The notes beneath the pieces were generated by a model. It did not search any database. It was not told the DNA's origin and worked only from the letters and a program-made list of their open reading frames with translations. This document shows positions 10,345 through 58,718 of a stretch of DNA of 64,000 bases, in pieces. Each line of letters opens with the position of its first letter. The first letter of the stretch is position 1. The DNA is from Stigmatella ashevillena (lineage in GTDB: Bacteria > Myxococcota > Myxococcia > Myxococcales > Myxococcaceae), in NCBI RefSeq assembly GCF_028368975.1, contig NZ_JAQNDM010000002.1:2986007-3050006 (forward strand). Direction: 5' to 3'. The translations under genes were made by a program, and so were the position numbers.

Positions 10345-10474
10345 GTTGATCGACTCCTCCTGGGTCAGTCCCTCAGCACGCCGGATGCCAACACCACTTG
10401 TGCTACAGGTCACGAAAACTGCCGCAAGGAGTGGCCGTAACCCTGTCATTTCACGGGGCTGCGCGCTCCCCCCT

Positions 10475-16171: not shown

Positions 16172-17070
16172 ACCCGTAGGAAGCGCCCCACCGCGATGAA
16201 GCTGCCCACCAGTCCGAGCCCTCCGCCCGCCGCCACCAGCTCCAGCGCCAGCCCCGGACGCACCAGGGGCTCTCCCGAGGAGGGGCCCAGCAGGAAGGAA
16301 AACAGGGAGGCCAGCGAGGGGCCCACCAGCTGGCCAAACAACCACAACCCCGCGAGCGCCACCCCTGCGCCCAGCAGCCCTTGGAGGAGCCCTTCGATGA
16401 GGAAGGGCGCCTTGACGAAGCGGTCCGTGGCGCCCACGAGCTTCTGGATTTCAATCTCCTCGCGCCGCGCGTAGATGGCGAGTTGGAGCGTGGCGGACAC
16501 GATGATGATGGTGGCGAAGAGCACCACCGCGAAGGCCACCACCCCGCCATACCGCAGCGCGCGGGCGATGGCCGTCAGCCGCTCCACCGCCTCCTGGCCA
16601 TAGTCCACGCCCGTGACGCCCGGCAGCGTGCGCACCTGCTGGGCCAGCGCCTCCAACCCCTCGGGGGTCCGCCGCTCGGGGGCCACCGCCAGCTCCAGGG
16701 AGGGAGGCAGCGGGTTCTCGGGCAACTGCGCGAGCGCCTCTCCCAGGTCTCCCAGCTCTCGCGCCAAGCGTCCCAGGGCCTCGTCCGGATTCACCAGCAC
16801 GGCCCGGCCGCCACTGGCGGTCTCCAGTTGCCCGCGCATGGCCTCCACCTGCTCCGGGGACAGCTCTGGCGCCAGGTACACCGTCACCTCGACTTCCCCC
16901 CCCAGCGAGGCGAGCAACCCATCCAGGGCGTGCCCCGCGGTGCGGGTGAGCCCCGCGGCGAACAGCGCGATGGCGATGGTGGTGATGGCGATGAAGTGAA
17001 CGAAGGGGGAGTGCTTCAGGCCTCCGGCGGCCGAGCGCCAGAAATAGGAGACCTTGGACAGCGCCGTCAT
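16168..17070 (-). CDS. ftsX: Cell division protein FtsX
   Basis: A 300-residue polytopic protein with four membrane helices (roughly residues 24-44, 172-195, 222-245 and 272-295) and a periplasmic loop of about 120 residues after helix 1, the known EnvC/hydrolase-binding loop. The conserved cytoplasmic motif REEIEIQKLVGAT before helix 3 is diagnostic. FtsX forms a non-transporting ABC complex with FtsE that turns ATP hydrolysis into activation of periplasmic wall hydrolases at the septum. Its start overlaps the ftsE stop and its stop overlaps the envC start, both as ATGA. Confidence 0.93.
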   Translation of the reverse strand: MTALSKVSYFWRSAAGGLKHSPFVHFIAITTIAIALFAAGLTRTAGHALDGLLASLGGEVEVTVYLAPELSPEQVEAMRGQLETASGGRAVLVNPDEALGRLARELGDLGEALAQLPENPLPPSLELAVAPERRTPEGLEALAQQVRTLPGVTGVDYGQEAVERLTAIARALRYGGVVAFAVVLFATIIIVSATLQLAIYARREEIEIQKLVGATDRFVKAPFLIEGLLQGLLGAGVALAGLWLFGQLVGPSLASLFSFLLGPSSGEPLVRPGLALELVAAGGGLGLVGSFIAVGRFLRV

Positions 17071-17762
17071 ACCGCCGCCATCCGCCGGGCCGCTTTGACG
17101 CCGTCCTCGTCCGACACGATGAACCCACGCTCCAGCCGCACCGTGCGCTTCTGGTAGCGCGCCAAGAGCGTGCTGTCGTGCGTGGCCACCATGACGGTGG
17201 TGCCGCGAATGTTCACCTGGTTGAGCAGGTCCATGATCTCCACGGTGAGCGCGGGATCCAGGTTGCCGGTGGGCTCGTCGGCCAGGAGGATGGTGGGATC
17301 ATTGACCAGCGCGCGCGCGATGACCACGCGTTGCTGCTCTCCACCGGACAGGCGCAGCGGGTATGAGCGGGCCTTGTGCTCGAGCCCCACCAGCTTGAGC
17401 ATGCGGTGGACCTTGTCGCGCGCCTCGTCCCGGGGCACGCCCAGCACGTCCAAGGTGAAGGCGACGTTGTCCTCCACCGTGCGGTGGGGCAACAGCTTGA
17501 AGTCCTGGAACACCACGCCGATGTTGCGCCGCAGGTAGGGCACGGCCGACTCGCGGATGCGCGCGATGTTCCGTCCCCCCACCAGAATCTGCCCCTTCGT
17601 TGCCTTCTCCGCGCAGAACAGCAGCTTCAGCAACGTGGTCTTCCCCGCGCCCGAGGGGCCCGTCAGGAAGATGAACTCCCCTTTCTCGACGTGCAGGTTG
17701 ACGTCCGAGAGCACGGGGGGATCCCCCGGGTAGGCTTTGTACACATGGAAAATCTGGATCAT
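17067..17762 (-). CDS. ftsE: Cell division ATP-binding protein FtsE
   Basis: A 231-residue ABC ATPase. The ATG at 17762 opens the conserved MIQIFHVYKAYPG N-terminus; an in-frame start 15 codons earlier adds non-conserved sequence. Walker A is TGPSGAGKTTLL, the signature is LSGGEQQRV, and Walker B is ILLADEPTGNLD. The RRNIGVVFQDFKLLP segment is typical of FtsE. It is cytoplasmic and pairs with FtsX. Overlap with ftsX is ATGA. The gene 105 bp upstream on the same strand encodes a photoactive-yellow-protein homologue. Confidence 0.94.
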   Translation of the reverse strand: MIQIFHVYKAYPGDPPVLSDVNLHVEKGEFIFLTGPSGAGKTTLLKLLFCAEKATKGQILVGGRNIARIRESAVPYLRRNIGVVFQDFKLLPHRTVEDNVAFTLDVLGVPRDEARDKVHRMLKLVGLEHKARSYPLRLSGGEQQRVVIARALVNDPTILLADEPTGNLDPALTVEIMDLLNQVNIRGTTVMVATHDSTLLARYQKRTVRLERGFIVSDEDGVKAARRMAAV

Positions 17763-17867
17763 CGGCCAGCGGATTGTGGACCCAACCGGCCCTTGGCTCC
17801 ACTCCATGGCGCTCCCCTGCCTGCCCCCAGGGCGCGGGGCCCGGAGGAAGGGGGCGCTCAGGCCCGC

Positions 17868-18275
17868 TCAGTGCTCCTGGAGGGGGATCAACGCCGTCAG
17901 CAGGGCTGTCACGAAGACCCAGCGCGAACCGTCCCGCAGCGCCATCAGCCGGATGCGCACGTGGCGTGTTCCCCACCGGAAGCGGAACTGGAAGTCAAAG
18001 CTCTCCGTCCCATGCCCCTGCTCGACCAGCGCGTCGAAGCGCCCCCGGAAGTGGGCCACATTGGCGCAGGGGGCGATTTCCTCGAAGAAGCGGCGGCCGA
18101 GCACGGACTGGGGCTTGCGCCGGGCGAACGCGGACTCCGCCGCGTTGTAGACCAGCACCCGTCCTTCCGCGTCCAGCTTGATGGCGCCGAACGGCAACGC
18201 ATCGAACTCTTCGGGCGACAACTGGCCCAGCCGATCTTCCGTCAGCGACTCCGCTTCCAGAATCCCATGCTGCAT
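17868..18275 (-). CDS. pyp: Photoactive yellow protein (PYP) homologue, single PAS domain
   Basis: A 135-residue protein that aligns end to end with photoactive yellow protein, offset by one residue. The match includes FGAIKLD, the YNAAE loop, FFEEIAPC and the closing WVFV strand. The chromophore-site residues of Halorhodospira PYP are present: Tyr43 (Tyr42), Glu47 (Glu46), Arg53 (Arg52) and the p-coumarate-binding Cys70 (Cys69). Thr50 is Ala51, and Met100 corresponds to Trp101, which could change the photocycle speed. The protein carries no output domain and has about 10 extra C-terminal residues. PYP is a blue-light sensor that needs p-coumaroyl-CoA; no chromophore genes are in this window. 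It lies 105 bp upstream of ftsE, same strand. Confidence 0.85.
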   Translation of the reverse strand: MQHGILEAESLTEDRLGQLSPEEFDALPFGAIKLDAEGRVLVYNAAESAFARRKPQSVLGRRFFEEIAPCANVAHFRGRFDALVEQGHGTESFDFQFRFRWGTRHVRIRLMALRDGSRWVFVTALLTALIPLQEH

Positions 18276-18399
18276 GTGACGAGCCCCCCCCCGCGGCAGC
18301 CCTCCCGTCCTGGGTGGACTGCCTGCCCGAAAGTGTACAGGGGTTGCTCTGGCCTTGTCACAATCCCCGCCCCGAGGGGTCAGGGAACGAACCGACGGA

Positions 18400-18957
<558 letters not shown>

Positions 18958-19185
18958 GCCGAAGGCGCCGGAAGCTAGCAGCGCCCCCGGGGGGAGACAA
19001 GTTAGCGTCACACGGTTCCTGCGCATTGCACCCCGGCCGGACGGATTTCCCATCCCTTGGGACGATGGGATTCGCGGTTGCCCAGCGGGCGTTCAAGCCC
19101 AGCGCTCATTCTTGAAAAGCCAAGCGCGCCTAGGCTACGTACGTCATGCCGTGAACATCCGTCCTCCCCTGCAGCCAGGTGTCCG

Positions 19186-20010
19186 ATGAAGAACAACCCC
19201 ACGAACCCGCTGCGTCAGCAGGACGCCCAGGTCCTGGCCCAGGGCTACTCCCGGGCCATCCGCCTGATGGACATCGCCAGCATCGTCATCTTCGTGTCCC
19301 TGGAGCTGGCGCTGGCGTACATGCTGTGGGGCAACCCCCATGTAGGTCCATGGTTGCTGCTGACCGCGATCATCCTGGGATACCTGGCGGCGGACTTCGT
19401 CTCGGGCTTCGTGCACTGGATGGCGGACACCTGGGGCTCCAGCACCATGCCCGTGCTGGGCAAGGCCTTTGTCCGGCCCTTCCGCGAGCACCACGTGGAC
19501 CAGAAGGCCATCACCCGTCACGACTTCATCGAGACGAACGGCAACAACTGCGCCATCTCCATCCCCGTGGGCATCGCCACGCTGGTGATGCCGCACAGCA
19601 GTTCCACCTGGGTGTTCCTCGCGTCGTTTCTGGGGTCGATGATCTTCTGGGTGATGGCGACCAACCAGTTCCACAAGTGGTCGCACCTGGATGCGCCGGG
19701 CGGGTGGGTAGGCTTCCTGCAGCGCGTGCACCTCATTCTCCCGCCCGACCACCACCGCATCCACCACACGGCGCCCTTCAACAAGTACTACTGCATCACC
19801 GTCGGCTGGCTGAACAGGCCGCTGGCGATGATTGCCTTCTTCCCCACGCTGGAGCGGATCGTCACCTGGGCCACCGGCATGCTGCCTCGCCAGGACGACA
19901 TCGGCACGGAAGCGGCGAAGGCCTTGCTGGAATCCTCGGAGGAGAATGCCCTCATGGTCCATGCCGCCAAGGCCCTGCTGGAAGGCACCGAAGAGCCGAA
20001 GTCGATCTGA
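19186..20010 (+). CDS. carF: CarF-type plasmanylethanolamine desaturase (TMEM189/Kua family)
   Basis: A 274-residue membrane desaturase. The histidine-rich metal ligands of the family are all present: FVHWMADTWG (His77, Asp81), REHHVDQ (His102, His103), TRHDFIETNGNN (His112), QFHKWSH (His163, His167) and DHHRIHH (His189-His194). Three hydrophobic spans surround them. In Myxococcus xanthus CarF makes the vinyl-ether bond of plasmalogens and is needed for the light-induced carotenoid response. The ATG at 19186 starts the conserved N-terminus. The C-terminus contains a short repeat (AAKALLE twice). A 228-bp divergent gap separates it from the unknown gene upstream. Confidence 0.88.
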   Translation: MKNNPTNPLRQQDAQVLAQGYSRAIRLMDIASIVIFVSLELALAYMLWGNPHVGPWLLLTAIILGYLAADFVSGFVHWMADTWGSSTMPVLGKAFVRPFREHHVDQKAITRHDFIETNGNNCAISIPVGIATLVMPHSSSTWVFLASFLGSMIFWVMATNQFHKWSHLDAPGGWVGFLQRVHLILPPDHHRIHHTAPFNKYYCITVGWLNRPLAMIAFFPTLERIVTWATGMLPRQDDIGTEAAKALLESSEENALMVHAAKALLEGTEEPKSI

Positions 20011-58703: not shown

Positions 58704-58718
58704 GGCTCTCGGGTCTTC

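Follow-up and report, generated by a model that had tools for sequence, protein, structure and literature searches.

A photoactive yellow protein homologue in Stigmatella ashevillena and a predicted CarH/CarA-type operator upstream of its gene in part of the lineage

Although photoactive yellow protein (PYP) is a textbook example of a photoreceptor, little is known of its biological roles or of the partners through which it gives output. The family has been proposed to have arisen in Myxococcota (PMC9664959), a phylum that supplies 9.7% of the 984 PYPs compiled in PMC12826048; since the family may have its origin there, a PYP in a non-phototrophic myxobacterium is to be expected. Stigmatella aurantiaca has a PYP (PMC6126659, PMC11832031), spoken of as a single one in PMC11832031, and its fruiting is driven by blue light of 450 nm (PMC6126659). 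The second system that concerns us is the operator through which CarH and CarA act on the crt promoter in Cystobacterineae. CarH operators consist of tandem 11-bp repeats, nnnnTnnACAn, that lie over the -35 or -10 hexamer together with partial repeats (dr), and CarH is reported to bind even where just one or two of the repeats are full and their flanking repeats partial (PMC9304148).

We analysed a 64 kb stretch of the S. ashevillena genome (the window), in which an earlier note had proposed a PYP homologue with an intact chromophore site:

17868..18275, minus strand: PYP-family stand-alone PAS protein of 135 aa (open reading frame, phmmer, TIGR02373, residue map, model and Foldseek)

The reading frame starts with an ATG at 18275 and stops at 17868, and its GC content at the three codon positions (0.69/0.44/0.87) fits a coding frame. 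With the protein as query, phmmer against PDB sequences gave PYP as best match (4.9e-22), and each of the 33 matches listed was PYP, a Ppr domain of PYP type or an engineered PYP. The protein also matched NCBIfam TIGR02373 (photo_yellow, 2.3e-30), scoring 105.2 bits and hence below the curated cut-off of 143.05, which is a database threshold and no biological definition of PYP. Seven further PYP-like proteins scanned likewise scored under this cut-off, and of the PYP homologues that BLAST recovers, the model is reported to cover only 20% (PMC9664959). Local alignment to PYP of the 2PHY type (the Halorhodospira halophila reference being the G47S chain) scored 211, whereas 500 shuffled sequences scored 25 ± 4 and at most 54; the 110 aligned residues included 42 identities. 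The likeness to PYP is not due to chance. Judged from its sequence, 17868-18275 encodes a single-domain PYP homologue, as proposed. The alignment runs along nearly, though not quite, the whole length claimed for it: residues 13-122 are covered locally and 3-123 by phmmer, and the termini of the 135 residues fall outside. The protein contains no output domain, no neighbouring gene had an obvious signalling function, and a search of phage records for relatives returned none.

An AlphaFold model built from 20 sequences reached a pLDDT of 80.3. 2PHY, which the earlier note had named for a structural alignment, was the best PDB match of the model in Foldseek (3.1e-11, TM 0.76/0.82), and the best 40 matches were PYP, the Ppr PYP domain or FAST-type derivatives. 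The protein is thus modelled as a PAS fold that is nearest to PYP.

Alignment of the chromophore site placed Tyr43, Glu47, Arg53 and Cys70 at Tyr42, Glu46, Arg52 and Cys69 of PYP, exactly as the earlier note had it, with Ala51 at Thr50 and Trp101 at Met100. Compared with H. halophila PYP (2PHY), the protein shares the PAS fold, the equivalents of Tyr42, Glu46 and Cys69, the stand-alone arrangement and a like length; it differs in Ala for Thr50, Trp for Met100 and Arg for Gly51, in a C-terminal extension of about 10 residues, and in that no gene for p-coumarate ligase (pCL) or tyrosine ammonia lyase (TAL) adjoins. The two substitutions that had been named as differences from PYP are both present. 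Ala50 is the family consensus and hence nothing peculiar; Trp100 is limited to one orthologous group. The consensus of 984 PYPs has Ala50 and Leu52 (PMC12826048), so that Arg53 is no diagnostic residue either.

We searched 195 genomes of the phylum, of which 56 had a PYP match at E ≤ 1e-3. Close orthologues, here called window-type, were found in nine of the 195 (E ≤ 3.1e-39), the best match of the next genome reaching only 2.5e-25. Cys70, on whose conservation among close orthologues the earlier note had made its claim depend, was Cys in all nine, and Glu47, Pro69, Ala68 and Trp101 (the APC motif included) were equally invariant. We then compared residues across 62 PYP-like rows, which are genome matches with a retrieved locus and include four duplicates, each being one locus from two collections (L148, L149, L150 and L157 equal L006, L030, L007 and L037); the weak PAS matches L017, L018, L026, L028 and L029, which score under 110, were left out of the counts. 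Cys occupies position 69 in 61 of the 62 rows and is missing only from a short match, and the Glu46 equivalent is present in all 62, while position 42 is Tyr in 35 and Phe in 27. Twelve rows, every one of window type (nine distinct), have Trp at position 100; elsewhere this position is taken by His, Met, Phe, Val, Gln, Ser or Asp, with one gap. In this alignment, Trp at position 100 marks the window-type group (9/9) and nothing else. Within the group, position 42 is Tyr in seven members and Phe in the two of g17, one of which is Citreicoccus inhibens; at position 50, four members have Ala and five have Ser.

In a tree computed without the four duplicates (L148, L149, L150, L157) and the short match L024, the window-type proteins formed one branch (support 98/99), separate from the common Myxococcaceae type; L007 was long-branched. 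Among four orthologues of the same genus, dN/dS was 0.20-0.37 (six pairs), which indicates purifying selection; FtsE gave 0.04-0.08, meaning that pyp is constrained, though less than FtsE. A counterpart in G005 is 90% identical to the window protein.

The same genome carries another member of the family:

L099 7632-7961 (G000:C2:9688631-9688960): second PYP-like gene, 40% identity to the window protein

This second PYP belongs to the type that is widespread in Myxococcaceae, with Phe42 and His100, whereas window-type proteins have Trp100 and, in seven of nine, Tyr42. Its dN/dS was 0.07-0.17. G005 likewise carries both genes. Phytochrome PHY domains were found in 14 of the 17 genomes examined, including two in G005, a number that agrees with the two BphPs ascribed to S. 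aurantiaca in PMC11832031; they occur in six of the nine genomes with window-type pyp and in none of G018, G022 and G111. With other PYPs of Myxococcota (PMC9664959, PMC12826048; the S. aurantiaca PYP in PMC6126659) the window protein has phylum and family in common. Neither the family nor its presence in this phylum, in which PYP is common, is new.

A p-coumarate chromophore needs a source, and the earlier note had suggested a search of the genome for TAL and p-coumaroyl-CoA ligase. That search, with PF00221 and TIGR02372, yielded no recognisable TAL or PYP-type ligase in the window genome. Three PF00221 lyases are encoded there. Two of them exceed the hutH and PRK09367 cut-offs, their selectivity position being Ser-His. 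In the third, which begins with a signal-like N terminus, the Ala-Ser-Gly (MIO) tripeptide is missing. Across 26 genomes, none contained a PYP-type coumarate ligase scoring over the TIGR02372 cut-off. His-Leu at the selectivity position, which we take to be the TAL signature, was seen in lyases that overlap or adjoin an adenylating ligase in G022, G111, G018 and G014; G006 has it in a lyase that is more distant. All five genomes have PYP matches. The pairs in G022, G111, G018 and G014 are perhaps operons for p-coumaroyl supply. As a general route of chromophore supply, a TAL-ligase operon was considered and set aside as too weak to call. Lyase and ligase occur together in G014, G022, G111, G018, G012 and G026, the last two of which have no PYP match, so that four of six such genomes have PYP, and the pair is missing from 52 of the 56 genomes with a PYP match; G032 has the ligase without the lyase and G006 a 44% lyase without the ligase. 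In pyp operons at large, TAL is found in 5% and pCL in 32%, and uptake of p-coumarate is considered possible (PMC12826048); their absence therefore does not refute PYP function. Because neither gene is recognisable in the window genome, the earlier proposal of a working photoreceptor is kept conditional throughout.

Two observations on the lyases stand apart from this question. The homologue without the MIO tripeptide (L100 6452-8116, G000:C1:414568; also L129 in G005) adjoins outer-membrane and MFS-type genes by eye. A second gene of the histidine ammonia-lyase type (L101 7219-8754, G000:C2:4171269) lies amid very large PKS-/NRPS-like frames and is 90% identical in G013 (L085).

The surroundings of pyp in the window comprise three assigned genes:

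18400..19053, minus strand: romY homologue, a polarity regulator (NF053858, 134.7 bits, cut-off 50), directly upstream of pyp
17067..17807, minus strand: ftsE (TIGR02673, 301 bits, cut-off 264.85), the next gene downstream of pyp
19057..20010, plus strand: carF, plasmanylethanolamine desaturase (NF045946, 533 bits, cut-off 500; the family match begins at residue 44 of the frame), divergent from romY

The order romY-pyp on the same strand recurs in eight of the nine window-type loci; in G018 pyp lies elsewhere. Beyond romY, carF follows in seven of the eight, and the contig of G133 stops within romY. In the four genomes of the same genus that have window-type pyp, ftsE lies about 60 bp downstream of it, and the g17 and g23 loci have other genes in between. 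These differ by locus, namely SDR and LysR genes in g17 locus L092 (C. inhibens) and a permease gene in two g23 loci, all by eye; no output gene shared by L092 and the two g23 loci was found between pyp and ftsE, and a conserved output partner at this place was rejected. We then turned to 18 relatives without romY-linked pyp. All 18 have romY, 15 have carF beside it, and in ten ftsE follows directly; in five more a permease-type gene (by eye) comes first and ftsE lies 1.6-4.3 kb away, and in G002 and G006 it was not seen within the stretch retrieved near romY. As romY, usually accompanied by carF and often by ftsE, is kept in relatives that have no pyp at this place, we regard the neighbours of pyp as inherited background and no evidence of partnership. 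For the same reason carF, which also adjoins romY where pyp is absent, was not counted as the sign of a light cluster. The romY-ftsE junction as such (window 17807-18400; L087-L093, L167-L173) varies in Myxococcaceae, being empty or holding pyp, a permease, SDR and LysR, or combinations of these.

Between romY and pyp we found two overlapping elements:

18332..18361, minus strand: sigma-70-like promoter, -35 GTGACA (18361-18356), 18-nt spacer, -10 TACACT (18337-18332)
18329..18361, minus strand: proposed CarH/CarA-type operator, three 11-bp units over -35 and -10: dr (GTGACA), dr (AGAGCA), DR (TGTACA)

The promoter was the one such sequence found in 17600-19200, where shuffles gave a mean of 0.1. 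Its 30-bp element stands upstream of pyp in the four window-type genomes of the same genus and in Pyxidicoccus fallax (P. fallax). A search of 1,193,773 bases with up to six substitutions, the number needed by the window and G005 copies, gave no other occurrence. Ten shuffled versions of the element, searched alike, gave no match, and the pattern derived from the aligned copies hit one site in the window genome with two mismatches allowed. Between P. fallax and G004 the element is identical at 28 of 30 positions, compared with 18/33 and 31/54 in the flanks. That is, the promoter element is conserved.

Conservation of the element was noticed first, and the operator motif was recognised only afterwards. 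The element of G001, G004 and P. fallax reads GnnACA-n5-TnnACA-n5-TnnACA in 11-bp phase, corresponding to two full repeats and one GnnACA; in the window and G005 copies a single repeat is full and the other two are partial. The pyp element resembles the crt operator of PMC9304148 in its tandem 11-bp repeats of the nnnnTnnACAn type, full or partial, over the promoter hexamers. It differs in having three units rather than five, with the -35 in unit 1 and the -10 in unit 3, and in that it would control a photoreceptor gene instead of carotenoid genes. No report of CarH control of pyp was found in the open-access literature searched, and PMC9304148 does not mention PYP.

We next analysed how rare this arrangement is. 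On both strands of 1,196,801 bases, a three-unit array (ACA in all units, TnnACA in at least two) was confined to the pyp loci of G001, G004 and P. fallax (seven rows, three loci). Searched across 17 whole genomes, the pattern ACAn5TnnACAn5TnnACA gave 20 rows representing 17 distinct sites, and the pattern read backwards gave five. Eleven of the 17 sites lie upstream of a crtE-like gene and serve as positive control, three are at pyp (G001, G004 and G133, which is P. fallax), and three are others. The crtE-like genes were checked for the PF00348 polyprenyl synthetase domain in two cases and otherwise called from a like N terminus, and their sites show the DR/dr layout of PMC9304148. The exact pattern finds the crt control in only 11 of the 17 genomes and not in G003, G006, G028, G124, G143 and G155. 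Genomes G001, G004 and G133 have exactly two pattern sites each, one at the crt promoter and one at pyp. The three other sites are G022:C76:8307, G006:C8:57570 and G028:C1:3575192.

A position weight matrix (PWM) was built from the crt repeats. Four pyp promoters, those of G001, G004, P. fallax and G005, exceeded all 2,086,102 positions of a background that excludes loci retrieved by the operator pattern, and repeat phases of 10 and 12 scored badly. The window copy scored 13.6, second in its 64 kb. The site ahead of it, at 58712, starts immediately upstream of a gene in a pil-type operon (by eye), reaches into that gene and was taken as chance. Two background positions exceeded the window copy, both representing one G143 site in two overlapping loci, which scales to about 20 per genome. 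By its score the window's own copy is not significant, and its standing as a candidate operator comes from orthology. Compared with P. fallax, G001 and G004 it appears to have partly decayed from the full form. The pyp genes of G155, G022, G111 and G018, four of the nine window-type genes, have no operator upstream, and the 400 bp upstream of the second pyp, viewed in four genomes, contain no array of three ACA in 11-bp phase.

Genome G143 has no window-type pyp; the operator-like promoter (L170, minus strand, about 10372-10404) lies there where romY has its 3' end. Its flanks align with the pyp promoter of P. fallax, and there is no clear pyp remnant in the 320 bases examined. It is probably a fossil promoter whose pyp gene has been lost; the element could also serve something else. 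The window genome, for its part, has carA- and carH-type genes in tandem within the crt operon: a MerR protein with a B12-binding domain is encoded at L199 7701-8612, and a CarA-like frame adjoins it (by eye).

On balance we lean slightly towards a functional PYP whose synthesis is predicted to be induced by light through CarH/CarA in at least part of the lineage. The protein would then be a PAS-fold blue-light receptor with p-coumarate bound as a thioester to Cys70 and its phenolate held by Glu47 and Tyr43. Trp101 in place of Met100 would be expected to alter re-isomerisation and hence dark recovery in the photocycle, and any output would pass through a partner protein. The gene would be transcribed from its own promoter of the sigma-A type behind romY. 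In the dark, adenosylcobalamin-bound CarH, and CarA, would bind the three phased 11-bp repeats and repress pyp in part of the orthologous group, and in the light pyp would be expressed together with the carotenoids. With the incomplete operator of the window genome, control may be weaker. More tentatively, and at somewhat less than an even chance, we suggest a cascade of photoreceptors, in which pyp is under the direct control of CarH, itself a photoreceptor that uses cobalamin and is backed by CarA and the singlet-oxygen/CarF route. A reversible p-coumarate receptor would then be made only after a one-shot B12 receptor has seen light, and PYP would be part of a carotenoid and photoprotection regulon, tuning the behaviour or fruiting of lit cells.

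The most serious rival is an ordinary PYP photoreceptor behind a constitutive promoter, the 11-bp phasing being a chance by-product of the -35 and -10 boxes or the site of another MerR-type regulator. GTGACA and TACAAT/TACACT could be simply those two boxes, and the full array is missing in the window copy and at pyp of G155, G022, G111 and G018. However, the middle TGRACA keeps the 11-bp phase within the spacer in G001, G004 and P. fallax, and we know of no RNA polymerase contact that requires this sequence there. Given that the sole other match in those three genomes is the crt promoter, and that phases of 10 and 12 score so poorly, we consider a constitutive promoter less likely, though a serious possibility.

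Doubt may also be directed at the receptor itself. If no p-coumarate were made, the protein could be a PAS domain derived from PYP but no photoreceptor, its pocket, with Trp101 and Arg52-Arg53, binding another ligand or none. The window genome has neither a TAL signature nor a pCL over cut-off, as such a role would predict, but Cys, Glu and the APC motif are invariant under purifying selection, TAL and pCL are scarce in pyp operons anyway while p-coumarate might be taken up (PMC12826048), and blue light of 450 nm does drive fruiting in S. aurantiaca (PMC6126659). We regard loss of the photoreceptor function as improbable. Least probable of all, and hardly to be expected, is a function tied to the neighbours, by which pyp would let light act on cell polarity (RomY) or on division (FtsEX). 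The adjacency of romY and pyp in eight of nine loci and the 60-bp gap to the ftsE frame here would suit it; yet romY and ftsE, mostly with carF, stay together in relatives that have no pyp, the junction holds unrelated genes elsewhere, and pyp has a promoter-like element of its own. Coupling to ftsEX or romY was therefore rejected as the main reading.

PYPs in myxobacteria, S. aurantiaca included, have been published before, which bears out the earlier note's mention of a PYP from Stigmatella. What is new is a PYP lineage with Trp100 that has a CarH-type operator pattern on part of its promoters. S. aurantiaca may have two PYP genes, which would matter for any knock-out, a single one being spoken of in PMC11832031. 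For the fruiting of Stigmatella in blue light of 450 nm we know of no proven receptor in the literature consulted. If the proposed cascade is true, pyp would, to our knowledge, be the first gene outside carotenoid synthesis to come under CarH in Cystobacterineae. PYP would thereby gain a physiological setting, photoprotection after light, that is testable in tractable soil bacteria, and CarH would gain a target beyond the carotenoid genes.
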